DNA of 64,000 nucleotides from Pirellula sp. (GTDB lineage: Bacteria > Planctomycetota > Planctomycetia > Pirellulales > Pirellulaceae). The notes under the pieces are model-generated. The model was not told where the DNA came from, did no database searches, and saw only the letters and a list, made by a program, of their open reading frames with translations. Position 1 is the first letter of the stretch; every line of letters starts with the position of its first letter. Of this stretch, positions 910-60,100 are shown in pieces. Location of the stretch: contig JAJTID010000030.1 of the NCBI GenBank assembly GCA_021300155.1, forward strand, positions 1 to 64,000. Reading direction: 5' to 3'. The translations under genes and the position numbers were made by a program.

Positions 910-2958
910 ATGAACTCACCCGTTCACAGTCCGGTCAAGATAGCCATTGATACCATTCGAACACTGAGTATGGATGGTGTTCAGGCAGCCAACAGCGGGC
1001 ATCCAGGAACACCCATGGCGTTGGCTCCTGTGGCATTTCAAATTTGGACCGATGCAATGACCTACGATCCTGCCAAGCCGCTTTGGCCGAATCGGGACCG
1101 GTTTGTTTTGTCGTGCGGTCATGCATCGATGCTTCTTTACTCAATGCTCCATTTGTCTGGTGTTCGAAGTGTCGATGCGCATGGTAATGTGACGAATGAA
1201 GAAGCCATATCTCTCGACAACATCAAGAAGTTTCGACAACTTCATAGTCCTTGTGCGGGACACCCAGAGTTTGGCTATGCGACGGGTATCGAAACCACGA
1301 CAGGCCCGCTTGGCCAAGGAGTCGGTAACTCGGTCGGGATGGCAATCGCATCAAAGCACCTGGGTACAAAATACAACAAGCCAGGATTCGAGCTGTTCGA
1401 TTTTGATGTTTATGCCCTTTGCGGCGATGGGGACTTGATGGAGGGAGTGGCTGCGGAAGCGGCTTCTCTCGCTGGGCATTTGAAGCTATCGAATCTTTGT
1501 TGGATCTATGATGACAATGGAATCACTATTGAGGGGCATACCGAATTGGCCTTTAGCGAGAATGTCGCGAAGAGGTTTCAGGGGCTTGGTTGGCACACAG
1601 TCGATGTAGCAGATGCGAACGACCTGGTTGAGTTGAAGGCAGCTTTCGATTCATTCAAAGCAACGACCGATAAACCAACGTTGATCATTGTGAAATCGGT
1701 GATTGGTTACGGTTCACCGAACAAGGCGGATTCGCACGGCGCTCACGGTGCGCCTCTCGGGGATGAAGAAATCAAATTGACGAAAAAGTTTTATGGTTGG
1801 CCAGAAGAAGAGAAGTTCTTCGTACCTGATGTCGCTAGAAAAGTGTTTGCCGACACCATTGGTGCAAAGGGAGCTAAAGCTTCGAGTGAATGGCAAGCCA
1901 AGTTCTCGGAGTACAAAGTCAAGTTTCCAAAAGAAGCAGTCGAACTTCAATCGATTATCGAGCACAAACTACCTGAAGGTTGGGATGCTGGATTGAAGCC
2001 TTTCGCCGCTGACCCTAAGGGGCTCGCGACACGCGTTAGTAGCGGAAAGGTGCTGAACATGCTTGCTCCTAACTTGCCAAGTTTGATTGGCGGTTCGGCC
2101 GATTTGGCACCATCCACCATGACATTGCTAGATGGCCAAGGGGATTTCGGTGTCGGAAGTTTTGCGAGCCGAAACATGCACTTTGGAATTCGCGAGCATG
2201 GGATGGCTGCGGCCTTGAACGGTATGAGCCTATGTGGATTGCGAGCCTACGGAGCAACATTCTTTGTCTTCACCGATTATATGCGTCCATCCATGCGATT
2301 GAGCAGCATTATGCATCAGCCCGTGCTTTATGTACTGACGCACGATTCTATCGGATTGGGCGAAGACGGGCCAACGCATCAGCCGGTAGAGCATTTGGCT
2401 GCGTGCCGCGCGATTCCTGGCATGTATGTGTTTCGACCTGCGGATGCGAACGAAGTACTCTTTGCTTATCGCGCTGCAATGAAGCTGACAAAGCATCCGT
2501 CTGCCATGGTACTCTCGCGGCAGAATGTTCCAACATTGGATCGAACAAAGATGGGTGATGCTTCGGGTACCGAGAAAGGTGGCTATGTGTTGAGCGACTG
2601 CCAAGGGGAACCGCAAGCGATCATCATGGGTACAGGAACGGAGATTCCTATTTGCCTGAAGGCACAAGAACTGTTGAATGCAAAGGGGATCAAGACCCGC
2701 GTAGTCAGCATGCCATGCATGGAGCTGTTCGAAGATCAAGACGACGCGTATCGAGCAAGCGTATTGCCTGGCACCGTCAAAGCGAGAGTCGCGTGCGAAG
2801 CAGGTATTCGCCAGGGATGGGATGCTTACATTGGCGCAGAAGGGAAGTTTGTCGGAATGAGTACCTTTGGTGCCTCCGCTCCGTTCAATCAGCTTTATGA
2901 CCATTTCAAGATTACGGCTGAGAACATTGCGAACCAAGTGCAGTTGATGGCTGGCTAA
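910..2958 (+). CDS. tkt: Transketolase
   Basis: Thiamine-diphosphate enzyme moving two-carbon ketol units between sugar phosphates in the non-oxidative pentose phosphate pathway; cytosolic homodimer. At 682 aa it is full length. Visible in order: SGHPGTPMALAPVAFQIW near residue 28, the ThDP/metal motif GDGDLMEGVAAEAASLAGH (about 175-193) followed by the DDNGITIEG segment, HGAHGAPLG (about 277-285), the catalytic-glutamate segment FGIREHGMAAALNGM, and the signature GEDGPTHQPVEH near residue 485, then the C-terminal domain. The ATG at 910 follows a weak AGG at 899-901. The SDR gene starts 66 bases after its stop on the same strand, so co-transcription is possible. Confidence 0.97.
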   Translation: MNSPVHSPVKIAIDTIRTLSMDGVQAANSGHPGTPMALAPVAFQIWTDAMTYDPAKPLWPNRDRFVLSCGHASMLLYSMLHLSGVRSVDAHGNVTNEEAISLDNIKKFRQLHSPCAGHPEFGYATGIETTTGPLGQGVGNSVGMAIASKHLGTKYNKPGFELFDFDVYALCGDGDLMEGVAAEAASLAGHLKLSNLCWIYDDNGITIEGHTELAFSENVAKRFQGLGWHTVDVADANDLVELKAAFDSFKATTDKPTLIIVKSVIGYGSPNKADSHGAHGAPLGDEEIKLTKKFYGWPEEEKFFVPDVARKVFADTIGAKGAKASSEWQAKFSEYKVKFPKEAVELQSIIEHKLPEGWDAGLKPFAADPKGLATRVSSGKVLNMLAPNLPSLIGGSADLAPSTMTLLDGQGDFGVGSFASRNMHFGIREHGMAAALNGMSLCGLRAYGATFFVFTDYMRPSMRLSSIMHQPVLYVLTHDSIGLGEDGPTHQPVEHLAACRAIPGMYVFRPADANEVLFAYRAAMKLTKHPSAMVLSRQNVPTLDRTKMGDASGTEKGGYVLSDCQGEPQAIIMGTGTEIPICLKAQELLNAKGIKTRVVSMPCMELFEDQDDAYRASVLPGTVKARVACEAGIRQGWDAYIGAEGKFVGMSTFGASAPFNQLYDHFKITAENIANQVQLMAG

Positions 2959-3024
2959 TGACCGATCTTCGGCTTGATGCTGTTTTTGGGAACAACTCAA
3001 TACTGGAACTTATTGGAGAAACGA

Positions 3025-3813
3025 ATGCACTACAACTTTGCGGGCAAGAACGCGTTGGTTACTGGTTCTTCGAAAGGGATCGGGCGAGCCGTTGCGATCG
3101 AACTAGCGCGAGGTGGTGCAAACGTCACAATCAATTGCAGTTCGAGTAGATCGTTAGCGGACGAGGTTGCTCGCGAAATAGAGTTGATCGGTACGCGAGC
3201 GATTGTTGTCGAATGCGACGTCTCAGAGCAGTCCGCGGTCGAAGACATGGTGAAGAAGACGGTCGATGAGTTCGGAAGTCTCGATGTCTTTGTCTCCAAT
3301 GCGGTATACAGCGATCGTCAATTGATGGTAGAAGCTGATATGAAGGGCTTCCGCAAGACGATCGACGTCAGCATGTGGGGCGCGTTTTATGGACTTCGAG
3401 CAGCAGCACAGCAGATGATCGATCAAGGCAAAGGTGGTGCGATAACGATTGTAAGTTCGCCTCATTCGCTCGTGCCGTTTCCAACTGCGATGGCCTACAA
3501 CATGGCAAAGGCAGCGATCGACCATATGGCGAGAACAGCTGCAATCGAGTTGATCAAGCATGGAATTCGCGTCAACATCTTCCATCCCGGTTGGATCGAT
3601 ACGCCAGGCGAACGCAAGTTTTTCTCTGAAAAGCAGCTAGAAGAAGGGGCGCGGGCACTTCCGATGGGACGGCTAGGGACATCTGAGGAAATGGCCCATG
3701 GCATCTGCTTTACGCTAAGCGAAGCTGCTTCCTACATGACTGGCACAACCATGACCATGGATGGCGGAGTCCAGTTACCTTGGTGGTCAAAGCGATCTGA
3801 AGGTGGGCAATAA
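3025..3813 (+). CDS. SDR family NAD(P)-dependent oxidoreductase
   Basis: Classical short-chain dehydrogenase/reductase of 262 aa, cytosolic. The Rossmann cofactor motif TGSSKGIGRA lies at about residues 14-23 and the catalytic pair is YNMAKAA (Y and K of YxxxK) near 162-168, preceded by the Ser-containing ITIVSSPHS strand. The usual NNAG is replaced by SNAVYSD. The C-terminal segment ending TMTMDGGVQLPWW resembles glucose 1-dehydrogenase and FabG-type reductases; the substrate cannot be read. The frame is open upstream to 2974, but the ATG at 3025 has a good Shine-Dalgarno (GGAG, 3015-3018) and the protein begins MHYNFAGKNALVTG as expected for the fold, so I place the start there. Confidence 0.9.
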   Translation: MHYNFAGKNALVTGSSKGIGRAVAIELARGGANVTINCSSSRSLADEVAREIELIGTRAIVVECDVSEQSAVEDMVKKTVDEFGSLDVFVSNAVYSDRQLMVEADMKGFRKTIDVSMWGAFYGLRAAAQQMIDQGKGGAITIVSSPHSLVPFPTAMAYNMAKAAIDHMARTAAIELIKHGIRVNIFHPGWIDTPGERKFFSEKQLEEGARALPMGRLGTSEEMAHGICFTLSEAASYMTGTTMTMDGGVQLPWWSKRSEGGQ

Positions 3814-24357: not shown

Positions 24358-24481
24358 AACAGATATGACACAGCGATTGTGGCGGATGATTCAATAATTC
24401 TCTGTAGCCACAATCGAGTCCCAGGCAACTACCAACGTAGGCATCATCCTAGGCACCCGCCAACTTAGACACGTACCAATA

Positions 24482-25789
24482 GTGGATCGATTGTTGAACT
24501 CCAAACTCGTTTTCGTCCAATTCCCTCTGTGCAACCGCCCTTCGGCTATTGCAACATTGGCCACAACGGTCCTACTCGCCGGGTATCAACTATTTGCGGG
24601 GTTCGTCGTTGCCGGACTAGTCATTGGGGGCGCGTCGGTATCCTATGCGATCGATAACGTCCAAGTGCAAATGATCGGAGGCACTGTTCACTTGGGAAGC
24701 CTGACAAGCATCGATGAGCAAAATATCGTTTTGCAATCGGCAACTGGAGCCAAGCAGCTTTCAATCGCAGATACGAACGTGTTGACGTTCACTGGTTCGG
24801 TGCTCAAAGAGTCAGCTCCTGCACTAGAACTGACTCTATTGGACGGCTCGCGATTGCGAGGAAGCGGCTTTCGCGGCAAAGGGAACGAATGGCTGTTGGA
24901 ATCTTCATTGCTTCAAACCTCATCCATTCCACCGAAAGTCATTCGCTCCTTAACCTTTAAGCCTTTGGTCGAGAAACAGCTTGCAGGTTGGAATGATGCA
25001 CTCTCCGACCCGAGCCAAAACGACGGCCTGGTTGTAACGAGACCGAGCGGTGAAATTACGCGAGTCGGTGGAACCATTCTGGAAATCCGAAATGGCCAAG
25101 TCTCGTTCGAGTTTGACGATCAAAAACTAGAGATGCCTTCGGAGAAGCTTCTTGGATTGGTTTGGTTTCAGCCTAACGCCGATCGAAAATCACCTGCGAT
25201 TGAAGTCAGGACAGTTGACCAATCCCAGTTCCAAGCGGTTTCGTTGAAGGTGAACGGTAGCGATCTCGAATGCTTGTCTGCATCGGGGCTGGTTTCAAAG
25301 GTTCCCTTGAAGGGAGTCGTCGATATACGTTTTTCTGCATCCAATCTTCGATGGCTTGCAGAGGCAGAGAAAATCGAATCGTTCGAAGAGCAGCCGTCGA
25401 ATTGGAAGTTTTCTATCGATTTGGCGAAGCAAGCGTTTGCACCACGATTCGTCTCTGAGACTCGATCCACCGGAGAACAGGCAGCTTCCGATCTCGATCT
25501 TCTTTTCTCGAGCCCCGGAACATATTCCTTTCGAATGCCCGAAGGCTTCAGACGACTTGAGTCGAGAGTTCAAAGAAGTGAAAGCGGGAACGTTCAATCC
25601 AAACTCGTTATCCAAGTGTGGCAGGATTCGGAAAAAGTCTCTGAGTCCGTCCTAGAAGCAAATCAAGACCACATCGATATCAAAGCAACCTTAAAGCCAG
25701 AGAAAAAGATTCGGTTGGTCGTAACCTCATCAGATCCAATGCATTTGGGAACGGAAATCCAATGGAAACAACCAAGATTGCTTCGATAG
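24482..25789 (+). CDS. Uncharacterised exported protein, first gene of the HtrA-like operon
   Basis: A 435-aa protein starting at a GTG (no good ATG or ribosome site nearby, so the start is uncertain). Residues about 25-57 are hydrophobic (TTVLLAGYQLFAGFVVAGLV) and probably a signal or anchor, ending near SYAIDN. The mature part is all-beta in character: VQVQMIGGTVHLGSLTSIDE, then LELTLLDGSRLRGSGF, and a C-terminal half resembling NPCBM-like carbohydrate/ligand-binding folds (for example LDLLFSSPGTYSFRMPEGF). No catalytic residues recognised. Its 3' end overlaps the protease gene by 28 bases. Context suggests a periplasmic partner or substrate-binding protein of the protease cassette; that is inference. 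Confidence 0.7.
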   Translation: MDRLLNSKLVFVQFPLCNRPSAIATLATTVLLAGYQLFAGFVVAGLVIGGASVSYAIDNVQVQMIGGTVHLGSLTSIDEQNIVLQSATGAKQLSIADTNVLTFTGSVLKESAPALELTLLDGSRLRGSGFRGKGNEWLLESSLLQTSSIPPKVIRSLTFKPLVEKQLAGWNDALSDPSQNDGLVVTRPSGEITRVGGTILEIRNGQVSFEFDDQKLEMPSEKLLGLVWFQPNADRKSPAIEVRTVDQSQFQAVSLKVNGSDLECLSASGLVSKVPLKGVVDIRFSASNLRWLAEAEKIESFEEQPSNWKFSIDLAKQAFAPRFVSETRSTGEQAASDLDLLFSSPGTYSFRMPEGFRRLESRVQRSESGNVQSKLVIQVWQDSEKVSESVLEANQDHIDIKATLKPEKKIRLVVTSSDPMHLGTEIQWKQPRLLR

Positions 25790-27603
25790 TCGTCCGATCC
25801 GCAAGTCGCTTCGGAGAGTTGAAGCTCCAGAGAGTCTTTGCTGCATTGACTCTTTCCGTGCTTTCGAGCCTCTCTTCTTCCGGGCAAGAACCCAATACTT
25901 TGCCTCAACCGAATGCGAAAGTCATCGAGGCTCAGAACGAGCGCATCGCAGCGATGAAGAAGGCCGCACGCTCCACGGTATCAGTGCACGGGAGCGACGG
26001 CCAAGGGGGCGGCTCTGGGGTGTGTATCTCCAGCGATGGTTATGTACTAACCAACTTTCACGTTTCGAGCCCTTTCGGACATCGCATGCGATGTGGCATG
26101 AATGATGGCAAAATGTACGAAAGTGTCGTTGCTGGAATTGACCCCACGGGTGACTTAGCGGTCGTCAAGATGTTTGGCAGGGATGATTTTCCTGCGGCTG
26201 AATTGGGGGATAGCGACCTCGTTCGAGCTGGCCAATGGTGCTTTGCAGCAGGCAATCCTTTCGTCTTGGCTACGAATCTCCAACCCACCATCACATACGG
26301 ATTGGTCAGCGGTGTACGAAGATACCAATATCCGAGCGGGACCTTTCTGGAATATAGCGATTGCATTCAAACAGATGCAGCCATCAACCCAGGTAACTCG
26401 GGTGGCCCTCTCTTCAACATGAAAGGCCAACTGATCGGGATCAACGGTCGATGCTCATTCGAGAAAAGAGGAAGAGTCAATGTTGGCGTCGGGTACGCTA
26501 TATCGATCAAACAAGCGATGAACTTTTATTGGCAGCTACGTTCCGGCCGAGTTGTGGATCACGCGACACTAGGATTCACCGTCGCGACAGACACGAAAGG
26601 TCGAGTCAGTGTCAGCAACATTCTAGATAATAGCGATGCGTTTCGCCGAGGGATCCGGTTCGGAGACGAAATTCTACGTATCGGCGATAGAGACATTGCA
26701 ACGACCAACCAACTCAAAAACATCGTCGGTATCTATCCAGACCAGTGGCGAATTCCAATCCGTTTCCGTAATGAAGACGGCATCGTTGAGACACATATTC
26801 GACTACAAAGCTTGCATCTGGCGAGCGAGCTCGAGGAAATCATTGCTGGCGAAAACCAAAAACAAAAAGATGCACCCAAGAAAAAAGCGCCAAAAGAGGA
26901 AGGAGAAGTAGAGGAAGAAAAGACGAAGCCCACTCCCAAAGAGATTACCAAAGACGTTTTGGCAGACAAATTCGAGGAGAAGCTTGGTTACTCCAACTAT
27001 TTCTTCAATCGTTTGGAGCTTCAGAGAATCACGACGATGCAAGCATCCAATAAATTGCCAGCTACGGATAACTCACCGCAAACGTGGCGTTGGCAAGGAG
27101 ACTTGCCTGCCGAGAATCAAGGATTTTCCGGAGAATGGTCTAGTAACGGATTGACTATTCGATTTGGAGACCAAACCGATACCCTTCATCCAACACAAGG
27201 CTGGTTGCAAACGACAAAGAAGCAGTCCCCTGTAACGATTGGCATGGCCCTGCGAATTTGGCAATTGTGGCACTCGGTTGGCCCCTATGGAATCGGTGAA
27301 GCCGTTTACTTGGGCCGCAATCCAGTGCTCGGAGTTGCCGAATTGCAAGACTGTACCAAGCTCACGGTTGGGGAAGTAACGTGTCTCGTTTACACATCGC
27401 CAGAGAATGGCCAAATTAGAGTTGTCGAGTTCTTTCCTGATGGCCAATCGGAGCCCGCCGAGATTTACTTCGAAAAGTACACGACCGATAACGTTAGATC
27501 ACTACCCTCATTGATCAGGCTTCAGTTTGGACTGGAGACAAAGCTCATTGCCAAAATCGACAGCCATTCATTTCTCGATCGTCCCACAACAGAAGGGCTT
27601 TAG
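25762..27603 (+). CDS. HtrA/DegP-type trypsin-like serine protease with PDZ and C-terminal extension
   Basis: A 613-aa exported protease, S1C family. The catalytic triad is complete: His100 in GYVLTNFHV, Asp131 in DPTGDLAVVK and Ser213 in INPGNSGGPLFN. A PDZ domain follows (about residues 265-350, ATLGFTVATD to FRRGIRFGDEILRIGDRDI). About 357-405 is a Lys/Glu-rich linker, and 410-613 is an unrecognised domain not found in standard DegP. The N-terminal segment LKLQRVFAALTLSVLSSLSS is the probable signal. The ATG at 25762 overlaps the previous gene by 28 bases; a TTG at 25819 would put the signal peptide right at the start and is an alternative. Role: periplasmic quality control or regulated cleavage. 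Confidence 0.88.
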   Translation: METTKIASIVVRSASRFGELKLQRVFAALTLSVLSSLSSSGQEPNTLPQPNAKVIEAQNERIAAMKKAARSTVSVHGSDGQGGGSGVCISSDGYVLTNFHVSSPFGHRMRCGMNDGKMYESVVAGIDPTGDLAVVKMFGRDDFPAAELGDSDLVRAGQWCFAAGNPFVLATNLQPTITYGLVSGVRRYQYPSGTFLEYSDCIQTDAAINPGNSGGPLFNMKGQLIGINGRCSFEKRGRVNVGVGYAISIKQAMNFYWQLRSGRVVDHATLGFTVATDTKGRVSVSNILDNSDAFRRGIRFGDEILRIGDRDIATTNQLKNIVGIYPDQWRIPIRFRNEDGIVETHIRLQSLHLASELEEIIAGENQKQKDAPKKKAPKEEGEVEEEKTKPTPKEITKDVLADKFEEKLGYSNYFFNRLELQRITTMQASNKLPATDNSPQTWRWQGDLPAENQGFSGEWSSNGLTIRFGDQTDTLHPTQGWLQTTKKQSPVTIGMALRIWQLWHSVGPYGIGEAVYLGRNPVLGVAELQDCTKLTVGEVTCLVYTSPENGQIRVVEFFPDGQSEPAEIYFEKYTTDNVRSLPSLIRLQFGLETKLIAKIDSHSFLDRPTTEGL

Positions 27604-27606
27604 CAC

Positions 27607-28656
27607 ATGACACGACCAGCGAACTGTGTGTTCGTGCTTCTATGCCTTTGGGTCGGAATAGCATTGACCATCGAGAACAACTTGGTGTTCGGCGCACCGA
27701 TCGATCAGTCGAGTACGACGGTGTTGATGAGTCACGACACATTGGTGGACCGAGTTCAAGAAAAGGTTGTCAAATTGTTCGGTGCCGGCGGCGCGAAAGG
27801 ACTTGAGAGTTACCAAAGTGGCGTGCTCATCGGATCCGATGGGTACATCCTGACCAGTTGGAGCACGGTGCTCGATGTGACGAGCGTCAGGGTCGTTGCT
27901 TACGATGGTCGCCGGCTGAATGCGACCGTTGTTGGAGTGGACCCGCCGAACGAGATGGCACTCCTCAAAGTGGATGATGCAGGATTGAGTGGATTCGAGT
28001 TAGACACCAGCCTCGCAATTCGTCCAGGCCAACGCGTATTTGGTGTGAGCAATCTTTTTGGTATCGCGACGGGAAACGAGTATTGCAGTGTCCAAAAGGG
28101 TGTTGTCATGGCCGTTGCACCATTAACTCAGAGGCGAGGAAAGACGAAATCGCTTTATCAGGGGAAAGTCTATGTAATCGATGTGATGACCAATAATCCG
28201 GGGGCTGCTGGCGGAGCCTTGATCGACATGCAAGGACGGCTGATCGGAATTTTGGGGAAAGAAATTCGAGATGAACAGGCAGGAATTTGGTTGAACTATG
28301 CCCTTCCGCTCGATGTTGTCCAAGCATCGATGGATAGGATTCTCAAGGGAAATACATCCGTCGAATCAGAGTCGATTAAGACTGTTGATAAACCTCACCG
28401 TTTGGCAGATCTGGGGCTAACGTTGATACCGGACGTCTTGGCGAAAACGCCTGCCTTCGTCGATCAAATCCGAAAAGGATCGATTGCGGATCATTCTGGA
28501 ATCCAAACCAACGACTTGATCCTTTTAGCCAACGACCAACGCATTGATTCGAGAAAGTCGTTTGAGCGAGTCCTTAGTACATTGAATCGTGCAGACTCTT
28601 TTGAGTTGCTCGTACAACGGGGTCAGGAACTCATTCGAATTCAGGTTCGCCCATGA
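27607..28656 (+). CDS. HtrA-like pseudoprotease with PDZ domain (triad lost)
   Basis: A 349-aa protein with signal peptide (VFVLLCLWVGIALTI) and the same trypsin-plus-PDZ plan as its upstream neighbour. Aligning landmarks: SDGYILTSWST replaces SDGYVLTNFHV (His to Ser86), VDPPNEMALLKV replaces IDPTGDLAVVKM (Asp to Glu116), and NNPGAAGGALID replaces INPGNSGGPLFN (Ser to Ala201). All three catalytic residues are gone while the fold and the PDZ domain (about 263-349, DLGLTLIPDV to FELLVQRGQE) are kept. It should bind but not cleave. The ATG comes 3 bases after the protease stop. The reading frame is intact, so this is a conserved-looking gene rather than a decayed one. Confidence 0.85.
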   Translation: MTRPANCVFVLLCLWVGIALTIENNLVFGAPIDQSSTTVLMSHDTLVDRVQEKVVKLFGAGGAKGLESYQSGVLIGSDGYILTSWSTVLDVTSVRVVAYDGRRLNATVVGVDPPNEMALLKVDDAGLSGFELDTSLAIRPGQRVFGVSNLFGIATGNEYCSVQKGVVMAVAPLTQRRGKTKSLYQGKVYVIDVMTNNPGAAGGALIDMQGRLIGILGKEIRDEQAGIWLNYALPLDVVQASMDRILKGNTSVESESIKTVDKPHRLADLGLTLIPDVLAKTPAFVDQIRKGSIADHSGIQTNDLILLANDQRIDSRKSFERVLSTLNRADSFELLVQRGQELIRIQVRP

Positions 28657-30719
28657 TACTATTTTGTGCCTTTGGCCCGTTGAACCACATGCAACAAACT
28701 TTGCGTCGACCTACGAAGCTATTTCGATGCTTCCTACGTGCTCTTTTTCAAGTGACCTTCGTTCTACTCTCGTGCGTGGGAGGCTTTCGTGGAGAGCGGT
28801 TGCTATTGGGACAACAGACGCTGGATACGCTCGAAGAGGAGGCATTCCAAGCAGCCGGGGACTTTGCTCAAGGAGCGGTGGTTCAAGTCGAGACTTTTGG
28901 CGGAATGGAGTTCGTTAACAAACAAGCAGTTGCACCCGGGCCGTCCACAGGCACGATCTTGACCAGCGATGGCTGGATAGTGACCAGCATGTTTTTGTTT
29001 CGAAGCCAGCCCGCATCGATCACGGTCATTTTGCCGAATGAAGTTCGCAAGGCTGCCAAACTGGTCGCTCGGGACTACAGTCGCGAATTGGCAATTCTCA
29101 AAATTGAGCCCGATGCTCCGCTTCAGGCTGCCATTCCAAGCAATCCTGCAGATTGGAGTATCGGTCAATGGACGATTGCATTGGGCAAAACGTTTGATGG
29201 TCGCGTCGCCAGTCGCAGCATCGGTATCCTGAGCGCTACTGGGCGAATCTGGGATAAAGCTATTCAAACGGATTGCAAAATCTCTCCACAAAACTACGGT
29301 GGCCCTCTGGTTGATTTGCATGGAAGAGTGATGGGAATCCTAACCATCATGAACCCTGGAATTGCGACTGAAGGGGAGGTAGAGCAATGGTATGATTCGG
29401 GAATAGGCTTCGCGGTACCACTGGTAGATGTTTTGCAGCGACTTCCCATGTTGCAGTCTGGGCAAGATATCCACTCAGGAAAAGCGGGAGTACGTGTTCA
29501 AGGCCGGGATGAGTTTCTTGAGGGTTTGGTCCTGAGTGGTGTATCGCCAGGCTCGCCTGCGGCCAAGAGCGGTTTGATGGCCGGCGACAAAATCGTTCGC
29601 GCTGGCTCGTCAGCCACGGCATTGAAACCGGTTGCAACCCATTCCAATCTGAAGCATGTATTGGGGCCCATCGATGCGAATAGCAAACTCTTCGTGGAGG
29701 TAGAACGGCAGGGGACGACCAAACAGTTTGAGATCGTATTGCTGAAGGATCTGCCTGCCTATCGAGAGCCTTATTTGGGTGTCGTAACGATTCGCGATGC
29801 TGACTCTTCGGAACGCATAGTGCAGGTCGCGAAAGACTCGCCTGCTTCTCGCGCTGGGATAAACACAGGTGATGTCATTCATAGCGTTGAAGGAGTACCA
29901 TTGACAAAAGAAGCTGGGCTCGAAGAGAAAATCTTGTTTTTGGATTACCGAGACGAATTGAAAGTGGGTGTCAAGAAACAGAACGGAACGGACATAACCG
30001 TTACGATTCAGCCGACCCCGCGCCCTGATTCAGAGATCCTTTTGGATCGTATGGAACTTCCTAAAGGACCCGGTGGAGCTCAGGCGGATGCCTCCACCGG
30101 AATGGTTCAATTGCCGCTCGGAGACGTCAAGAACAAAGCGTTTGCTGTCGTACCTAGCACATATGAAAAGACCACTCCACACGGTTTGCTCATAGTCTAC
30201 GCCGAAGCTGGCCAACAAGATCCCAAGCGATGGACAAGTTTATGGGAACGCTTTGGAGAAGAACATCGCTGGATCATCGTTGTCGTCCAGTCTGCCGATG
30301 AGAAAGCATGGAGTTTTGAAGAGGTCGAGATCGGGAAACGCTTGAGATCTTATCTAAACACCAACTACACGATCGACCCTCGCCGAGTTTGCATTGGAGG
30401 TGTTGCAACGGGTGGCGTATTGGCCATCATCACCGCTGTTCAAAGCGAAGGCTTTGGCTCTGTCTGGCTTTGCGATTCCAAGGTTGGCGAGAGACTCAAA
30501 CTCCCCCCTGCTGAGCCAAAGAAGTCTTTTCGCTTCTTTGTAAACGGAAAGGACGAGAATTTAGAAGGATTTGCCAAACGCACGCGAGAGGCGGGATACA
30601 GTTTTCAATACCACCAAGAAGAACTTGCAAGTCTCAAGGGAGCCGACTCAGCTAAACTCCAAGAAGACTTAATTCTTGGCAAGCTACAACAATGGTTGCG
30701 ATCTCTCGAAGCTTACTGA
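28653..30719 (+). CDS. HtrA-like pseudoprotease with two PDZ domains and an alpha/beta-hydrolase-like tail lacking its nucleophile
   Basis: A 688-aa exported protein whose ATG overlaps the preceding stop (ATGA, 4 bases). The trypsin-like domain (about residues 70-250) again lacks the triad: TSMFLF (Phe114 in place of His), DYSRELAILK (Glu145 in place of Asp) and SPQNYGGPLVD (Tyr215 in place of Ser). Two PDZ domains follow (about 268-358, GLVLSGVSPGSPAAKSGLMA; and 370-450, IVQVAKDSPASRAGINTGDV). The last 170 residues look like an esterase/alpha-beta hydrolase fold (TPHGLLIVYAEAG...IDPRRVCIGG), but the nucleophile elbow GxSxG reads GVATG with Ala585. So both enzyme modules seem inactive and the protein is probably a binding or scaffold partner. 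Confidence 0.82.
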   Translation: MILFCAFGPLNHMQQTLRRPTKLFRCFLRALFQVTFVLLSCVGGFRGERLLLGQQTLDTLEEEAFQAAGDFAQGAVVQVETFGGMEFVNKQAVAPGPSTGTILTSDGWIVTSMFLFRSQPASITVILPNEVRKAAKLVARDYSRELAILKIEPDAPLQAAIPSNPADWSIGQWTIALGKTFDGRVASRSIGILSATGRIWDKAIQTDCKISPQNYGGPLVDLHGRVMGILTIMNPGIATEGEVEQWYDSGIGFAVPLVDVLQRLPMLQSGQDIHSGKAGVRVQGRDEFLEGLVLSGVSPGSPAAKSGLMAGDKIVRAGSSATALKPVATHSNLKHVLGPIDANSKLFVEVERQGTTKQFEIVLLKDLPAYREPYLGVVTIRDADSSERIVQVAKDSPASRAGINTGDVIHSVEGVPLTKEAGLEEKILFLDYRDELKVGVKKQNGTDITVTIQPTPRPDSEILLDRMELPKGPGGAQADASTGMVQLPLGDVKNKAFAVVPSTYEKTTPHGLLIVYAEAGQQDPKRWTSLWERFGEEHRWIIVVVQSADEKAWSFEEVEIGKRLRSYLNTNYTIDPRRVCIGGVATGGVLAIITAVQSEGFGSVWLCDSKVGERLKLPPAEPKKSFRFFVNGKDENLEGFAKRTREAGYSFQYHQEELASLKGADSAKLQEDLILGKLQQWLRSLEAY

Positions 30720-31410: not shown

Positions 31411-34400
31411 CTACCGTCGGGTGGAGGCCAGAAACAAGCGTTTCGACAATATGGCCACACCGGTATGACTGCTAGGATCAGTATCGGTCGCATCGATCAG
31501 ACCTGCAATATCAGCCCCATTCGTATCTACAGGGTTTCCCGTTACGGAAGCGATATTCGTGTAGAGCCCAGAGGTTACGATTCGAGTTGCAGAGTAAGTC
31601 CACGTTTCATTGGTATCTAATCGATTGTTGCCGTTAGTATCACCGCCTTGGAAGAGAGCGTTGAAGTCGTCGGCCGTTGCACCTGTTGTTCCGTTGTCGT
31701 CACGAACAACCACTGTTGCCAACGGGGTATTACCTGTGTTGGTAACAGTGTATGTGAACGTCGCGGTGCTACCAACATTTAGATTCTGACCTGGAGCGGT
31801 GTTCGAATCCTGCCCGTTGGTCGACTTCACTACGTTAATACCCGTCGTTACACCGAAGTGATTGCTCGGATCGGTATCGGTCACGGCAGCAGCTCCTGGG
31901 ATCGCAACTCCCTGCGAGTCAAACGGTGTCGCTGTGATACTCGCGATGTTGGTATGCTGTCCTGCGGTCACGACTCGGGTGGCTTGGTAAGTCCACGTTT
32001 CTGTTGTATCGAGTCGACCATTGCTGTTGGTATCACCACTTTGCAACGTTGGAGTTAGATCGTCCGTGGTCACGCTTGCCGTACCATTGTCGTCCCGTAG
32101 AACAACCGTCCCGAGCGCTGCTGAGCCTGTATTCGTTACAACGAAAGTAAACGTAGCGGTTGCTCCCACTGCGAGCAATGGGCCAGTCGCTGTATTCGCG
32201 TCCTCTCCATTGGTGGACTTTACTACATTGATACCAGCGGTCACACCGAAATAGTTTGCAGGGTCCGTGTCTGTCGCATCGGCGAGACCGGCAATATCCG
32301 CGCCGGTGCCATCGACTGGATTTCCCGTCACCGTCGCTATGTTCGAATACTGTCCTGCGACCACAGTACGCGTCGCGTTGTAGGTCCAAGTTTCTGTTGT
32401 TTCCATACGGCCGTTGTTATTCGTATCACCGCTTTGTAGCGTCGCATTGAAGTCGTCTGCCGTATTACCAGGAGATCCGTTATCATCGCGTACGACGAGG
32501 GTAGCTAAGGCTGTTCCACCTGTATTCGTCACAACATACGTAAAGGTCGCGGTACTACCAACGATCAAGGTTGGACCTGTGGTTGTGTTCGCGTCCTGAC
32601 CATTTACCGACTTTACGACGTTGACAGTTGCTGCCACTCCGAGGTAATTGGCTGGGTCCGTGTCGGTGACGTCTGCCAACGCCGCGATATCGGCACCTGT
32701 CGTGTCCACGGGATTACCGGTTGCTGTCGCGATATTGGTGTATTGACCAGCGACAACGGTTCGAGTCGCTTGATAGGTCCACGTCTCAGTGAGATCGAGT
32801 CGACTGTTGCTATTGGTATCTCCGCTCTGAAACGTTGCATTGAAATCGTCAGCGATGTTTCCGGGAGTTCCATTGTCGTCACGAACCAAGAGAGTTCCCA
32901 ATGGAACGTTGCCAGTTGTTGTCACAACGTAAGTAAAGGTTGCCGTTGTCCCCACGCCCAGGGTTGGCCCTGTTGTTGTATTTGCATCCTGACCGTTGAC
33001 AGACTTTACCACATTGATACTGGCTGTCGCACCAAAGTGGTTACTAGGATCCGTGTCCGTCGCATCTGCTATACCAGCGATGTCAGCACCGTTAACGTCC
33101 ACTGGATTACCTGTAACGGTACCGATGTTCGTATACTGCCCAGCTGTGACAACGCGGGTGGCTTGATAAGTCCACGTTTCCGTTGTGTCCAACCGTCCGT
33201 TACTGTTGGTATCACCAGCTTGCAAGACCGCGTTAAAGTCGTCTGCTGTATTTCCGGTTGTGCCATTGTCATCGCGGACAACCACGGTTCCCAGTGCAAT
33301 GTTACCGGTGTTGGTCACTGCGAAGGTAAAGGTCGCTGTGGATCCAACCGGCAGAATTGGGCCCGTTGCCGTGTTCGCATCTTGTCCATTGGTGGATTTG
33401 ACCAAGTTCACTCCAGCTTGTACACCAAAGTGATTGCTTGGGTCAGTATCGGTAACTTGGTTGTCTGACGGATCTAAAGCTGTGATGCTGGCGATATTGA
33501 CATACTGGCCCGCTGTGACAACACGAGTCGCAGAATACGTCCAGGTCTCTGTGGTTTCAAGTATTGCGTTCGAATTCGTATCACCGCCTTGTAGTGTCAG
33601 AGTGAAGTCATCCGCTGTATTACCCGACGTCCCATTATCATCTCGGAGTACGACAGTATCTAAAGGAGTTCCGCCTGTGTTCGTTACGACGTAGGTGAAG
33701 GTAGCTGTTGAACCAACTGCCAACAACGGTCCTGTTGCCGTATTCGCATCTTGTCCATTCGTCGACTTCACGACCTGAATACTGGCTGTCGAGTTCTGGA
33801 TATTGGTGGTAACAATGTTAGGCACAAGACTTTGAACAACGGTAACCGTAGAGTCCAATTCCGTTACACCATTGATCGTCACTTCGATGGCACCAACGGA
33901 ATTAAAGTTAGCTCCGGTGCCACCATCCGCAGTAAAAGACGCGAAACGAACAAATAGATCTTCTGGAGTAGCTTGCGCAGGAATATTGATGGTGGTCGTC
34001 GAGAAGTTCACCGCGGAGGAATAGATGCGCACTACGACCGTTCCGCCAGAATTATCCCCCCGTGTTGCAAGTTGGATTCCCGCATTCGTATTTGTGTTAT
34101 TGAGAGTTATACCTCCGAGTCCAGTAGCGTCGAGGTTTGCACCATTGCTAACGGAATTGTCAACTCCATCGTATTGGAGCCTAGCAGACCCAAGGACATT
34201 CAATCCAGACGTGAAAGCCAGTGTGCTTATTCCAGGAATAATTGCCAATTCCAGGTTTTGAGATCCACTGGTGAAGACAGCCCGAATATCGCGTTCTCCA
34301 CCCACTACTTCTGGCGCTAGAACGGAGCTATTCACGGTCGTTGCTCCACTATTGGCTGTTACCGTTTGAGCGGTTGAGTTAAACGGATCAATGACTTGCA

Positions 34401-34875
34401 CAGCAGTGCCAGCACGATTGGCATTCGTAATGGTGACCAGAGTTGGATTGGTCGGTGGGTTGAAGCTAGCGGTTGGCAACTGGCGAATGAAGTAACTGCC
34501 CGAAGTCAATGTGTTCGCTGCGAGAGTGCCACCTGCATTGACGCTTGCGAATGTATAGAGACCTGTCGTGCCGTTCGTGACAGTCGTTCCCTGAAGCGTA
34601 TCTGCGCCCGCGTCGAAAACGTTGTTTGTATTCGTATCTCGGAACAACTGCACTGTCGCACCTGGAACAATTGTATCCGTTCCCGACTGGAAGGTATTGT
34701 TTCCGTTGACGTCGACAAACGATGTACCAGAAATGACAGCTAAGTCTAGCGCCATCACGGATCGCTCTTCGAGGGATTCGATACGAAGAGATCGTCGTTT
34801 CTTGGCCCGCTCTAACTCTTTGGTTCGTTTGTTACTGGACAGGTTAGTTAGTATGCGTTGCAAGAGGCCTGCCAT
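31411..34875 (-). CDS. Surface protein with SdrD/SpaA-like domain and six DUF11-type repeats
   Basis: A 1154-aa extracellular protein. The basic N-terminus (LSSNKRTKELERAKKRRSLR) ending in IESLEERSVMAL is the planctomycete-type LExRxxx export motif. Residues about 47-130 form an SdrD B-like/Cna-B domain with ISGTSFVDVNGNNTFQSGTD and DxNxNxVFD-type calcium-binding segments. A beta-rich region follows (about 140-355). From about 360 to the end there are six repeats, each starting with VVKSTNGQDANTATGP or a close variant and containing TFTYVVTNTG, LRDDNGT and TWTYxATRVVTAGQYTNIA. The protein stops soon after the sixth repeat with no anchor, sorting or autotransporter domain. A ribosome site (GGAG) precedes the ATG. 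Likely role: stalk, adhesin or S-layer-like component. Confidence 0.85.
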   Translation of the reverse strand: MAGLLQRILTNLSSNKRTKELERAKKRRSLRIESLEERSVMALDLAVISGTSFVDVNGNNTFQSGTDTIVPGATVQLFRDTNTNNVFDAGADTLQGTTVTNGTTGLYTFASVNAGGTLAANTLTSGSYFIRQLPTASFNPPTNPTLVTITNANRAGTAVQVIDPFNSTAQTVTANSGATTVNSSVLAPEVVGGERDIRAVFTSGSQNLELAIIPGISTLAFTSGLNVLGSARLQYDGVDNSVSNGANLDATGLGGITLNNTNTNAGIQLATRGDNSGGTVVVRIYSSAVNFSTTTINIPAQATPEDLFVRFASFTADGGTGANFNSVGAIEVTINGVTELDSTVTVVQSLVPNIVTTNIQNSTASIQVVKSTNGQDANTATGPLLAVGSTATFTYVVTNTGGTPLDTVVLRDDNGTSGNTADDFTLTLQGGDTNSNAILETTETWTYSATRVVTAGQYVNIASITALDPSDNQVTDTDPSNHFGVQAGVNLVKSTNGQDANTATGPILPVGSTATFTFAVTNTGNIALGTVVVRDDNGTTGNTADDFNAVLQAGDTNSNGRLDTTETWTYQATRVVTAGQYTNIGTVTGNPVDVNGADIAGIADATDTDPSNHFGATASINVVKSVNGQDANTTTGPTLGVGTTATFTYVVTTTGNVPLGTLLVRDDNGTPGNIADDFNATFQSGDTNSNSRLDLTETWTYQATRTVVAGQYTNIATATGNPVDTTGADIAALADVTDTDPANYLGVAATVNVVKSVNGQDANTTTGPTLIVGSTATFTYVVTNTGGTALATLVVRDDNGSPGNTADDFNATLQSGDTNNNGRMETTETWTYNATRTVVAGQYSNIATVTGNPVDGTGADIAGLADATDTDPANYFGVTAGINVVKSTNGEDANTATGPLLAVGATATFTFVVTNTGSAALGTVVLRDDNGTASVTTDDLTPTLQSGDTNSNGRLDTTETWTYQATRVVTAGQHTNIASITATPFDSQGVAIPGAAAVTDTDPSNHFGVTTGINVVKSTNGQDSNTAPGQNLNVGSTATFTYTVTNTGNTPLATVVVRDDNGTTGATADDFNALFQGGDTNGNNRLDTNETWTYSATRIVTSGLYTNIASVTGNPVDTNGADIAGLIDATDTDPSSHTGVAILSKRLFLASTRR
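31440..33795 (-). repeat. Six tandem DUF11-type coding repeats
   Basis: The Gly-Gln/Glu-Asp motif segments fall near 33755, 33385, 32990, 32595, 32205 and 31810, so the unit is about 390-396 bases (about 130 codons) for repeats 2-6 and about 370 for the first. The units differ at many silent sites, so they are related by old duplication rather than being a recent tandem expansion. Confidence 0.8.
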
Positions 34876-54126: not shown

Positions 54127-57100
54127 ATGTCGGCTACAAAAATCCCGCATAAGCTTCGGCGGCCGCTGTTTGAACAGCAACAAAAAATTCAATTGCACTA
54201 TTTGGGATGGAATCAGCCCATCCTCCACGCGGCCACGGAGCACTTGCTCCAGCAATACTCGCGCGGTGCCAATTGGGACCTAGACCGATGTCTCGTCGTA
54301 TTGCCCGGCGCTTTGTCAGGGCGTCGATTGACGCAGCTTTTAGCGTTGCGAGCCCAGCAACAAGGGCTCGTCCTCCGTCCTCCTGAAGTCCTCACGATGG
54401 GACAATTGCCGGAGTACCTGTACACCGCTCGGCTTCCATTCGCGAGCGATTTGGAACAAACATTGGCCTGGACCAAAGTGCTGCGCAATGCAGAGCCTGA
54501 TTTTGTGCGCCCTCTGTTGCTGGAGTTGCCAGACCCGCAAGAGCTGCGTCCATGGATCGATCTTGCCAAAATGCTCAGCGGTTTGCATCGCGAACTCGCA
54601 TCAGATTTGGTCGATTTTGCAGACGTTGCCGATGAGATCAAAGAACCTCAAGAAGTAATTCGATGGAAGATTCTAGCCAAACTGCAGCGCGACTATTTGG
54701 ACGAACTGCATACGGCCGGTTTGTGGGATGTTCAGTCCGCTCGACGGTTTGCGATCGACAACAACGAAGTGGCCACCGATCGGGAGATCGTATTGATTGG
54801 TGCGGTCGATCTCAATCGAGCACAACGACGATTCTTAGGTGCAATATCCGATAGTGTTCATGTACTCGTGGGTGCACCCGCCAGTTATTCAAGCGGCTTT
54901 CATGTCGATGGAACGTTGATCCCGGAGTATTGGCAAGACCTTGAGATCCGCGTCGAGCCTTCGAGGATCCATGTCCGCTCCACGCCGACGGAAGCAGCCA
55001 AGGAGCTAGCGATCCAACTTTCCGAGTTGAGGGATGCGTATTCGGTTCAACACGTCACGATTGGTATCCCCGACCCGGAAGTGGTTCCGATTCTTCAAGA
55101 GTCGCTCGCTGCCAACAACCTACAGCTCCGATACGGCCCTGGGACTCCTGTGACGCAATCCCCTCCGATGCGATTGATCGAAATGTTGATCGACTACGTA
55201 TCGGGTGGATCGATCGAATCCTTCAATCAGCTTGTCCGAGTCCCGAGCATCCAACGGTGGCTGGCACTGCAAAGTTCCGTTGTCGAGTTGGACAAAGACG
55301 TTAGCGTCCGGCCGGAAAAGCTTTTGAGTAGTTTGGACGCCTATCAACAATCGACTCTCATTCGGACGATCAGCCAAGTCGAATGGCCGGAAGCAAAAGG
55401 ACGCGAAATTTTCCTCGCGACGTTAAGTGCGATCGACGGATGGTTGTCACCGCTCCGCGTTACCAAACAAACGCTCGGACAATGGTCGCAACCGATTCGC
55501 CAAGTTATTCTGGCTATCTATGAGAACGAAGAAGTACACACGGATGAAGCTCTGGGAAATCTTTACGCTCGTTCGAGCGCAGCGGTCAATGCTGTGATCG
55601 AAACGTTGCAATCAGTCCCGAGCACTTTAGACATCCCTGTTTCTCTAGCGGATGCATACACTTGGTTGGTGGGGCAGTTAGATTCTGTTCAGGTGCCACC
55701 CATCGTTCAAGATGATGCGATCGAGATGCTAGGTTGGCTTGACCTCGCGTTGGATGATGCCCCAGTTCTGATGCTGACGGGGATGCATGACGGCGTTGTG
55801 CCGGAATCGGTAAACGGAGATACGTTTCTTCCGAATCAGCTTCGCAGCATGCTCGGGTTGATGGACAACGCTCGGAGATTTGCTCGCGATTGCTACGCGA
55901 TGTTGACCATGCTCAACACTCGCGAACAAGTGCAAATCATCTTGAATCATCTGAGCTCGACCGGTGATCCGCAAACTCCTAGTCGATTGCTATTGGCGGT
56001 TCCTCCGGATGAGCTCGCTTCACGTGTGCGATGGCTGTTGGAACCGAAAGGCATACGCGATGTAGACGAAGTGCCATCGATTTGGGCACCGCGCGAAGGG
56101 CAGACGAATATCCCGATCCCTTACCCCGTGGTTACCAAGCCTGTTCGGGATATGGCCGTAACGGACTTTAAGAAGTACGACCAGTGCCCTTATCGGTTCT
56201 ATCTTGGCAGGGTCGAACGACTCAAAGCGTTCCAGCATGAGAAACTGGAGCTCGACGGTGGCGGGTTTGGTGATCTCGTCCATAAATGCCTCGAGTTTAT
56301 GGAAGATCCGGCAGTGGCGACTTCCACGAATCCGGACGTGATCAGTTCATTCTTGATTGAAAAGTTGAAACTTCTCGCGAGGACTCAGTTCGGTGTTCAA
56401 CCACCCCCAGCCCTTCAAATCCAATTGGAGCAAGCGGAACGACGCCTTCAAGCTTTTGCCATTCATCAGGCCGCACATGCTGAGCAAGGTTGGCGTATCA
56501 AGAAGATCGAGTTCAAGGTTGAAAAGACAGATGGGCTCAAGCTGGACCTGGGCGATGGCAAATCGATGGTGATTCATGGTCGAATCGATCGTATCGACTA
56601 CAACCCCAAGCTTGGGACGCATGCAGTTTGGGACTATAAAACAGGTGACCAAACGGCAAAGCCACGCGAGAACCACGTGCGACAAAACAAAACTTGGATC
56701 GATTGGCAATTGCCTCTCTATGGCAAACTGATCCAAACGCTCAAGATCGAAGATTTGTCCAAAGTGCAGTTTGGATACATCTTGTTGCCACGCAACCCGT
56801 TGGAGACGCAATTCATCAAGGCGGACTTTACCGAAGCAGAACATGCTGCCGCGATTGAATCGGCCAAAGGGATCGCGCTGCGCGTTTACGACAATCAGTT
56901 TTGGCCTCCTCGATACAAAGGTATCTATAGTCAAGATGAGTACAACGCGATCACGCAACATCCTGTTGCGCGGCGTTGGGACCGAGATGCTGCGGAGAAG
57001 GAAGCCGAGCAAGCGAAGTTACGCGAAGCTGCATCCAACATCCATCCTATGCCGGAACTGGACGCTCCTGTAATGACGGACTCGAATGGTGCCGATACGC

Positions 57101-60100
57101 GAAGCACCGCGAATAGACATACAGACGAAGGGTTCGATAGCCGATCGTTACCTCCGATGATGAGAATGGAAACGCCGAACAAACTTCATTTGGAAGAGCA
57201 TCTCGCCGTGGGTAAGCCCAACAGCGATTGGTTTTCTTCCAAGATGATTTTGGCCTCGGCTGGTACAGGCAAAACCTACAATCTAGCAACCCGCGCGTTG
57301 CGTCTTTTGTTTACCGACCAGCCTTTGGATTCGATACTGGCGACGACGTTTACACGCAAGGCCGCCGGTGAAATCCTGCATCGTGTTTTGTCATGGTTAG
57401 CAAACGCGATCGAAGAGGAGGCAAGCTTCGAATCGTTGGCGTCGATTCTTGCGCCGTTGAAGATCACTCGCGATACAGTGAAGTATCAATTGGGACGATT
57501 GTGTTCTCACCTCCATCGATTTCGAGTCAGCACACTAGATAGTTTTTATTCTCAGCTAGCTCGTTCGTTTGCCCTCGAATTAAAGCTTCCTCCTGGTTGG
57601 AGTCTCTCGGATCCTTTTCAATACGAACAACTCAAACAGGAGGCGATAAGCCGAATGTTTGAGCACATGGATCGCAGCTCGCTAAAGTCGTTGGTATCGC
57701 AGCTATCCAAAGGGGAAGCCACAAGAAGCATCCGTCGCGAGATCGAGAACGTTGTATCCAATGGATACGATTTGTTCCGACGAACCAACGAAGGAGCCTG
57801 GAATCAGCTCACGGTCCCGAAAGGCCCTCGTGACGAAGAAGTGCAACGAGCGTTGCATGTGTTTGCTCATTCGACGGTTGAGCACAAAGGGTACGCCAAG
57901 TCTCGCGATGCGGCGGTCGAGAAATTCAACGCACAGGAATGGGGCGAGTTCTTGTCGTTAACGCTCGTTCAGCGTTCGGACGACGATATTCCAACCTACT
58001 CGTCGAAAGAGTTAGATTCCGAAGCAGCCAGCGCGCTCCGCATTCTGGCCAAGAAAGCAGCAACAAACGAATTGTCGAGTCGCCGTGCACAGAACGAAGC
58101 CGCGTTTCGACTCTTGCAAAACTATCATACGCAGCTTCAGTCGGTGAAGACAAAGCACCGTACTGTTACCTTCGATGATATCGCTGAACGGCTTGCGAAT
58201 TGGCTGCGTCAAACAGTAGAAGAGCATCGCATCCAGCCTGCTAAGGAACCGCAACGCGATACGATGGATACGATTTCGCATCGATTGGACTGCCCTGTTC
58301 ATCATTTGTTGCTGGACGAATTTCAGGATACATCTCCCGTCCAATGGGAGATCGTCAAACCGTTTGCTGAAGCCATTATTCAGAACCAAGTTGATAAGAC
58401 TTCGTTCTTCTGTGTCGGCGACAGCAAGCAAGCGATCTACGGCTGGCGTGGTGGTGTAGCCGAGATCTTTGAATCCGTCGGCGAACAAATCAAGAATGTA
58501 CAACAGGAAAAACTCGTCAAGAGTTTCCGCAGTTCCCCGATTGTCATCAACTTTGTGAACTCCGTTTTTTCTCAATTGGACAAACATGAGTGCTACTACA
58601 ACGGCGATGAAGCCGACGTGGATGCAGGTGATTCCAAAGCGATCGTCGAATGGACGACCAAGCACTTTACGCAACATGAAACATCCAAAGGGAGTTTGCC
58701 AGGCTATGTCGAGTTTCGCAACGCAGACGTCGACAAGAGTCGCGATCCAGAAGGTGACGAGAGCGCGTACGGACTGTTTGATGAAGTCGCTGATCGAATC
58801 GCCGAACTGCACCGAACGAACAGCAGTGTAGAGATCGGTGTGTTATGTCGGACGAATCGAGATGTCGGGCAACTGATCACCTTGTTGCGAGAGCGCGGCG
58901 TCGAGGCCAGTCAAGAAGGTGGAAATCCACTCACCGATTCGGCGGCTGTGTTGCTACTGCTGAGCGTGATGCGAGTAGCGAACCATCCATCCGATTCATT
59001 GGCTCACTTTCATGTGGCTCATTCCCCATTGGCAGAGCACTTACGACCAGAAACACTCGAGAATGCAGACAAACTCTCGATGGACCTACGAGCGAGTATC
59101 GACGCATTGGGATTCGGTAGTACACTCGGGCAACTCGCCAAAGATTTGGCACCGGCGTGCAACGAACGAGATCAAGACAGACTGAAGCAACTGGTTCAAC
59201 TCGGTTATCGATACGATACGATGCGGGGCGATAGCATCTTTAGCTTCATCGAATTTGTAGAGCAACAAAAAGTCGCATTGCCGGGGGTGAGTCGAGTGCG
59301 AGTGATGACGATCCATCAATCCAAAGGATTGGAGTTTGATGCCGTCTTCTTGCCGACGCTCGATCAAACCATTATTTCCCGTCCGCCATCGTTTGTTGCG
59401 ATGTACGAGGACCGAACGAAGCCTGCGATCGGCGTTGTGCGATACATGAATCGGGATATCCAAAAGTTTCTCGATGATTCATGGAAGATTGCTTTCCGCG
59501 AATTTGCCAACCAGCAACTCGCGGAAGCCTTGTGCGTTTTTTATGTAGCGTTGACTCGAGCTCGCCAAGCTCTTTATCTGTACACGGCTCCGTCGTCGAG
59601 CAGCAAAAAACGCTGGGGTTCCGTTCTTCATTCGATCTTTGCAACCAAAGAACAGCGCGACACACGCGGGCTTTTGATCCATAGTTGGGGTGATCCCAAC
59701 TGGTTCGAATCCGTGGTTCGAGACGAAGTCGAACAGGAGGATGCGGTTGCGGTGGCATCTCAAGATCGAATTCGTCGTGCGATCCAACTTCAACGCGGCG
59801 GTTCTAGTCCACGACTGATGCCATGGCTACGGCCTAGCAATGCTGTTGCAGCCAAGACGATTCGGCTCGGTTCACGTTGGACAGCGGGTGACACTTCGGC
59901 TTCGATCGTTGGCAAGCTGGTGCATCGATGGTTTGAAGAGGTTCGCGGTTGGATCGAAGATTACAAACCGAACAAGAAGCGTTTGAAGGAGATCGCAGCA
60001 TCCTCATTGACACAAGAAGAAATGTCGCATGTCAAAGTAACAGAATGGGTAGACCGTTTCGTGCGGTTCTGCGAGATGCCATCGGTTTTGAAAGCGCTCA

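Follow-up and report, generated by a model that had tools for sequence, protein, structure and literature searches.

A planctomycete gene block encoding an active-type HtrA protease with a predicted LolA-like domain and two conserved HtrA pseudoproteases

The window analysed here, a stretch of 64,000 nucleotides from Pirellula sp. (order Pirellulales, class Planctomycetia; assembly GCA_021300155.1, contig JAJTID010000030.1, positions 1 to 64,000), contains a block of four open reading frames (ORFs) on the forward strand, hereafter called P1 to P4, in which one HtrA-type protease with a complete catalytic triad is encoded together with two HtrA-like proteins that have lost it. P1 (24482..25789, 435 amino acids) begins with a GTG codon and has a C-terminal NPCBM/NEW2-like domain. 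P2 (25762..27603, 613 amino acids) is the active-type protease, with trypsin, PDZ and LolA-like domains, P3 (27607..28656, 349 amino acids) is an HtrA pseudoprotease with a PDZ domain, and P4 (28653..30719, 688 amino acids) is an HtrA pseudoprotease with two PDZ domains and an alpha/beta-hydrolase fold lacking its nucleophile. The tight coupling described in a first-pass annotation of the window was exact at every junction, the ORF coordinates giving a 28-base overlap between P1 and P2, a 3-base gap between P2 and P3 and an ATGA overlap between P3 and P4. The N-termini of the four proteins and of 17 relatives were judged by eye to be signal-like, suggesting that P1 to P4 are exported; the first-pass annotation had described P1 as an exported, beta-rich protein.

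All three HtrA-like proteins scored above the cut-off of the Pfam Trypsin_2 profile (P2 103.4, P3 79.2 and P4 65.1 bits; cut-off 27.6), and Pfam placed one PDZ domain in P2, one in P3 and two in P4. The Trypsin_2 domain of P2 (26011..26442, profile search) carries His100, Asp131 and Ser213 (codons at 26059, 26152 and 26398), as first read from the sequence, and is followed by a PDZ domain at residues 267-319 (26560..26718; PF00595, 24.0 bits against a cut-off of 23.2). In the combined alignments, which include the window's own protein, this triad was intact in 191 of the 195 P2 rows, the remaining 4 being gapped. P2 scored below the NCBIfam cut-offs for the Do family and for DegP/Q/S (206.8 of 416.2 bits with TIGR02037). 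Judged by its sequence it is a member of the HtrA superfamily, not a named equivalog, and its protease activity is predicted.

That the two downstream paralogues keep the fold and the PDZ domains and lose all three catalytic residues was borne out by Pfam and by the alignments. The degenerate trypsin domain of P3 (27817..28251, profile search) has Ser86, Glu116 and Ala201 at the triad sites and is followed by a PDZ_2 domain (Pfam, residues 282-347, 28450..28647), and that of P4 (28947..29339, profile search), with an NYGG motif, has Phe114, Glu145 and Tyr215 (codon at 29295) and is followed by the two PDZ domains (Pfam, residues 275-319 and 373-452, 29475..30008). An intact triad was found in none of the 193 P3 rows and none of the 196 P4 rows of the combined alignments, so that mutations private to this genome could be set aside as an explanation. 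Among the relatives, the histidine site of P3 is serine in 176 of 192, while its serine site is mostly Ala and otherwise Thr, Pro, Gln, Tyr or others. The serine site of P4 is tyrosine in 193 of 195 relatives, with the surrounding motif otherwise kept and the GG of the oxyanion motif retained, and the histidine site is mostly Phe, Tyr or Trp. With Ser at 176/192 in P3 and Tyr at 193/195 in P4, the replacing residues are thus themselves conserved, which goes beyond mere loss. Eight P3 rows, all Pirellula-like (L128, L129, L130, L132, L134, L135, L137 and L149), have serine at the nucleophile site.

Two alternatives turn on these residues. P3 or P4 might retain an unorthodox catalysis, through the tyrosine or, in a few P3 proteins, through a serine with glutamate; the eight serine-bearing P3 rows and the retained glycines of the oxyanion motif speak for it, and it is nevertheless very improbable, since no P3 row, these eight included, has histidine at the histidine site, no P4 row has serine at the serine site, and the two P4 rows that do have the histidine (L049 and L172) both have tyrosine at the serine site. 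The pseudoproteases might alternatively bind a small ligand or a metal, with the P4 tyrosine and the P3 serine as ligand residues. The conservation of the replacements favours this, as does the precedent of the magnetosome protein MamO, which binds metal elsewhere on the fold, but the metal ligands of MamO are, in the available part of its description, surface histidines away from the triad positions (PMC4794232), and the explanation appears improbable.

The selection acting on the three trypsin domains was compared with the nearest named locus, L127 from an uncultured Pirellula, whose P3 is 96 % identical (among the best 80 of 489 contig matches). The ratio of nonsynonymous to synonymous substitution rates (dN/dS) was 0.022 for the trypsin/PDZ part of P2, 0.049 for P3 and 0.042 for the trypsin/first PDZ part of P4, and 0.068 for the P2 tail, 0.095 for the P4 tail and 0.100 for P1. 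These values stem from one species pair (dS 0.35-0.42) and simple Nei-Gojobori counting, other pairs being saturated nearly throughout; the L128 P2 row in the set is a wrong, truncated match. On this one pair, purifying selection on both pseudoprotease parts is judged to be strong.

Such values bear on the idea that P3 and P4 are redundant HtrA paralogues in decay, retained in tandem by chance. The genome has 16 Trypsin_2 matches, 14 of them above the cut-off (Pfam profile search), and planctomycetes are described, in the available part of one source, as rich in HtrA and PDZ proteins (PMC6411480), both of which would suit redundancy. Against it stand the dN/dS of about 0.04-0.05 (one pair) and the missing triad in every sampled P3 and P4 row, on which decay was set aside, and also the other 11 Trypsin_2 proteins above the cut-off in the same genome, all of which keep H/D/S (9 by alignment and 2, L013 and L014, by eye); chance retention is hardly credible. 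In a tree of 51 rows, drawn from 15 loci together with 7 further trypsin-like proteins encoded in the window's genome (L222 and the long-branch L006 and L007 were left out), P2, P3 and P4 each formed one clade with support of 100/99. Every one of these clades holds members from the class and from deep lineages of the phylum, so that the three-way set is older than the divergence of the sampled lineages. P3 and P4 grouped together (99/94), a grouping that long branches could also produce.

The clustering of the genes in relatives was checked in 200 loci, 80 found by a P4 match and 120 by a P3 match (80 named and 40 more), with the neighbouring genes free and read with profiles built from the order. 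P2, P3 and P4 followed one another in 193 of the 200; of the seven exceptions (L048, L147, L148, L171, L210, L237 and L245), several lie at the end of a contig. Some contigs were sampled twice (e.g. L138 and L047), so the 200 loci represent fewer genomes; the family alignments A1-A5 covered 34-39 of 80 loci plus the window. Of 146 genomes of the order, 138 contained a P4 match at E ≤ 1e-20, though other HtrA proteins may account for the weakest of these matches. A strong P3 match (E ≤ 1e-45) occurred in 149 of the 198 class genomes surveyed, and in 147 of the 177 among them with a completeness of 90 % or more and a contamination of 5 % or less. Across a phylum sample of 294 genomes, P3 was matched at E ≤ 1e-45 in 46, namely 20/21 in the class and 26/273 elsewhere. 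The titles of the best 80 of 489 contig matches were planctomycete or unclassified, in a scan of which a controlled search outside the phylum was not part. Blocks of the P1-P4 type are present in cultured planctomycetes that are not pathogens, e.g. Blastopirellula marina DSM 3645 (L187).

In eight loci (L100, L101, L103, L165, L222, L233, L235 and L239) P2 and P3 are fused as one ORF; in the residue counts the spans of fused P2+P3 ORFs other than that of L222 covered both halves. Together with the strong purifying selection, these fusions give good support to a functional partnership, which is the part of the multi-component complex proposed in the first-pass annotation that the data carry, the complex itself being a further step. 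Alternatively, P3 and P4 could have functions in the envelope separate from that of P2, binding substrates through PDZ domain or peptide groove as chaperones or scaffolds, and be neighbours of P2 merely through a shared pathway. HtrA proteins can act as chaperones without any catalysis; most of the 200 loci encode P3 and P4 as separate ORFs, and both proteins carry PDZ domains of their own as well as a signal-like N-terminus (17 relatives). The P2+P3 fusions argue against independent action, as does the finding of P2, P3 and P4 together in deep lineages and in the window's genome, where the wider operon described below is scattered. Independent chaperones are an unlikely but serious alternative.

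The P2 tail (26938..27585) is predicted to form a LolA/LolB/RseB-like domain (AlphaFold2, AF2; mean predicted local distance difference test, pLDDT, 91.3; predicted template modelling score, pTM, 0.86). The two alignments used for structure prediction took in 60 of 81 rows and 59 of 74 rows. The best Foldseek match of the P2 tail was 3buu of the LolA superfamily, at E 1.5e-6, template modelling (TM) score 0.50, root mean square deviation (rmsd) 6.4 and 12 % identity, followed by LolA3, DUF1329, a lipoprotein carrier, RseB (2p4b, E 7.4e-4, TM 0.24) and LolB (E 2.2e-3). Profile searches agreed with this, though weakly: the tail of the window's P2 had no Pfam match to LolA, LolB or DUF4292, while among 39 family members DUF4292 was matched weakly in 12 at E ≤ 1 (best 4.4e-4), LolB in one (E 0.025) and LolA in none. 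These Pfam families are grouped in one clan. Searched by sequence against solved structures, the tail gave matches at chance level only (best E 0.58). The model thus points to a likeness in fold to LolA and not to family membership. The tails of deep-lineage P2 proteins, of which 19 of 24 rows were aligned, showed a remote relationship to this domain (hhalign probability 92.8, E 4e-7). Of 20 genomes, 19 carried the domain, each as a single copy, and the one without it is 77 % complete; Pfam LolA, RseB and DUF4292 had no match in those 20, the window's own genome included; among 14 control genomes they were matched in 6, 4 and 1, respectively.

The C-terminal part of P4 (30063..30716) is predicted to adopt an alpha/beta-hydrolase fold (AF2, pLDDT 92.9, pTM 0.90), with Ala585 (codon at 30405) at the nucleophile position. 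Foldseek matched it to EST2 (1u4n, E 2.2e-9, TMq 0.69, rmsd 6.8), and Pfam hydrolase matches were weak (Abhydrolase_3 in 18 of 37 members at E ≤ 1, best 1.5e-5). The nucleophile of the GxSxG motif, alanine in the window, is serine in 2 of 81 rows, with 5 gapped, and since it has been lost in nearly all rows this part is unlikely to be a working esterase. TAL-effector proteins topped the search of the P4 tail against solved structures and were rejected as repeat-driven matches, no single matched stretch passing alone. In P1, the NPCBM match (Pfam, E 7.6e-4, 19.9 bits) lies under the cut-off of 23.9 bits in the window's protein; in the family, NPCBM was matched in 33 of 35 aligned members at E ≤ 0.1 (best 3.1e-29).

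A four-gene operon, as first proposed, holds for the window's genome but not for many relatives, in which the block is the 3' part of an operon of 11 genes. The order there, read from the Pfam matches of two operons, is MoxR (AAA_3)-DUF58-BatA-g4-g5-c1-c2-P1-P2-P3-P4, where g4 is a weak VWA match and Pfam gives no clear assignment for g5, c1 and c2; TPR and BatD were not matched at E ≤ 0.01 among the 15 proteins of the two operons scanned. Clustering of flanking ORFs placed c1 in 95 and c2 in 90 of 120 loci, on the same strand and directly upstream of the block. Among 44 upstream regions from other genomes, chosen for contig room, 33 had the complete run from MoxR to c2; two of the regions (L247 and L248) were also the source of the query genes. 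Gene order suggests that the 11 genes are co-transcribed in these relatives. The P2 and P4 tails and this wider operon are additions to the first-pass annotation.

The genome of the window has MoxR-DUF58-BatA-g4 on contig C223 (L296/L299), g5-c1 on C198 (L255), c2 on C80 (L254) and P1-P4 on C204. P1 to P4 were kept together as the operon broke up in this genome, where the block is a stand-alone unit. Upstream, the 53 bases between divergent ORFs (24429..24481) are the presumed promoter region, as judged from ORF spacing; the opposite-strand ORF encodes an alcohol-dehydrogenase-like oxidoreductase and starts 53 bases from P1, although its true start may be further off. Downstream, P4 is separated by 28 bases from the end of a uracil phosphoribosyltransferase gene in convergent orientation.

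A second locus of the same genome (L011, C241:47372-50764) has BatA-like and g4-like genes followed by a 645-amino-acid protein (ORF 1255-3189), in which a Trypsin_2 domain with H/D/S is accompanied, by eye, by a triad-less trypsin-like part wrapped around a PDZ domain. By its sequence it appears to be a paralogous pairing of active and dead trypsin domains beside a VWA operon.

Elsewhere in the window, an ORF of 2117 amino acids on the forward strand (54127-60480) combines a PD-(D/E)XK nuclease domain with UvrD helicase domains that follow it, and may be a fusion of the AddB-AddA type. On the reverse strand, 31411-34875 encodes a 1154-amino-acid protein that consists, from its translation, of several repeats which resemble one another and are about 130 residues long.

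The nearest known pair is the magnetosome protease MamE with MamO, in which genes for an active HtrA and a degenerate HtrA-like protein occur together; in the available part of the paper, MamO promotes MamE-dependent proteolysis without catalysis, and active/inactive HtrA pairs are reported to have arisen several times in magnetosomes (PMC4794232). The planctomycete block differs in having two pseudoproteases, both with PDZ domains, in another phylum and another operon, and in that P2 of the window has no CXXCH motif (by reading) and no TauE match (Pfam). None of the three proteins reached the 800-bit cut-offs of the NCBIfam models for MamE (P2 103.2, P3 45.8, P4 86.7 bits) or MamO (P2 51.4, P3 41.9, P4 24.3 bits). 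Fixed inactive paralogues also partner an active protease in ClpP/ClpR and FtsH/FtsHi; these belong to other protease families and compartments. The DegS/AlgW pathway with RseB/MucB (sigma-E type) likewise joins an HtrA to a LolA-like domain, which, in the part of the source at hand, acts as a lipid sensor and protects the substrate of the HtrA (PMC7400510). In P2, by contrast, both domains share one polypeptide, with two pseudoproteases alongside; Pfam RseB was unmatched in 20 of 20 genomes. Bat/MoxR operons are said, in the available part of a further source, to serve stress resistance in other phyla (PMC11834572). The planctomycete operon resembles them in being headed by MoxR, DUF58 and BatA in that order, and differs in continuing with g4, g5, c1, c2 and the four-gene HtrA block and in the missing TPR and BatD matches. 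Listings of the open literature showed no report of an HtrA pseudoprotease in planctomycetes, of a link between HtrA and LolA or of an operon joining MoxR to HtrA, and 'HtrA', 'DegP' and 'PDZ' are absent from the main text, as far as available, of the Planctopirus limnophila essentiality paper (PMC10632474).

The strongest statement to be made is that one competent-looking HtrA protein and two fixed pseudoproteases have evolved as one unit, linked to a MoxR/VWA operon of the Bat type. The explanation preferred here, with a probability of roughly 0.55, is that the block is an envelope quality-control module in which the two fixed pseudoproteases regulate or position a protease with a lipid- or lipoprotein-sensing domain, coupled to the Bat-type AAA+/VWA system. 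P1 to P4 would then be the exported end of a planctomycete envelope quality-control or stress module that belongs with the MoxR-DUF58-BatA AAA+/VWA system, with which it shares a putative common operon in many relatives. P2 would be the only member with a competent triad, and its LolA/LolB/RseB-like domain, which probably binds acyl chains (of a misplaced lipoprotein, a lipid or lipopolysaccharide) or their carrier substrate, would make it responsive to lipid or lipoprotein. P3 and P4 would most likely be non-catalytic subunits or adaptors which bind substrate tails or signals and switch, feed, anchor or position P2, while the P4 hydrolase fold without its nucleophile and the sugar-binding-like NPCBM domain of P1 may serve as further binding modules. 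The MamO and RseB/MucB precedents make each half of this mechanism possible; the physical complex, the lipid sensing and the stress role are steps that we infer.

Several observations weigh against this explanation. Contact between MamE and MamO went undetected by the authors of the MamO work, in the available part of their paper (PMC4794232). The likeness of the P2 tail to LolA is remote (TM 0.50, rmsd 6.4, identity 12 %), and the apparent absence of LolA and RseB is an absence of matches to Pfam models only. P1 stands ahead of P2 in 162 of 200 loci, the misses including contig ends, and the hydrolase part is missing from the short P4 proteins of one family (L122-L126) and from deep lineages. 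None of the 17 listed genomes of family f111, which belongs to the same class, has P3, so that the module is dispensable for some planctomycetes; 29 more genomes of the class survey beyond those listed had no P3 match. The upstream partners were partial in 8 of the 44 regions, some of which may be cut by region length, and absent in 3 (L274, L275 and L281). In the window's genome, finally, all 11 genes are present on four contigs, so that a transcript shared with MoxR and BatA is unnecessary there.

The genes could encode a hitherto unrecognised, planctomycete-wide envelope machine merging, within one operon, a Bat-type MoxR/VWA AAA+ system, a lipid-gated HtrA of the DegS/RseB type and a hetero-oligomeric protease with two dead HtrA subunits; this bolder reading is tentative and on the doubtful side. 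It would place protease and LolA-like sensor in the one chain of P2, in bacteria for which Pfam matched neither LolA nor RseB, and, just as tentatively, would make P4 dead twice, as pseudoprotease and as pseudohydrolase.

Such a block points to a cell-envelope protease of a new, multi-part type. Much of a class, and deeper branches of the phylum as well, have retained a trio of HtrA proteins in which one is active and two are inactive. The predicted LolA-like domain of P2 gives a lead on lipoprotein handling in bacteria in which Pfam LolA matched none of 20 genomes, and the operon link gives a lead on what the planctomycete Bat-type system acts with. The presence of the block in cultured planctomycetes makes the role of pseudoenzymes in proteases testable gene by gene.

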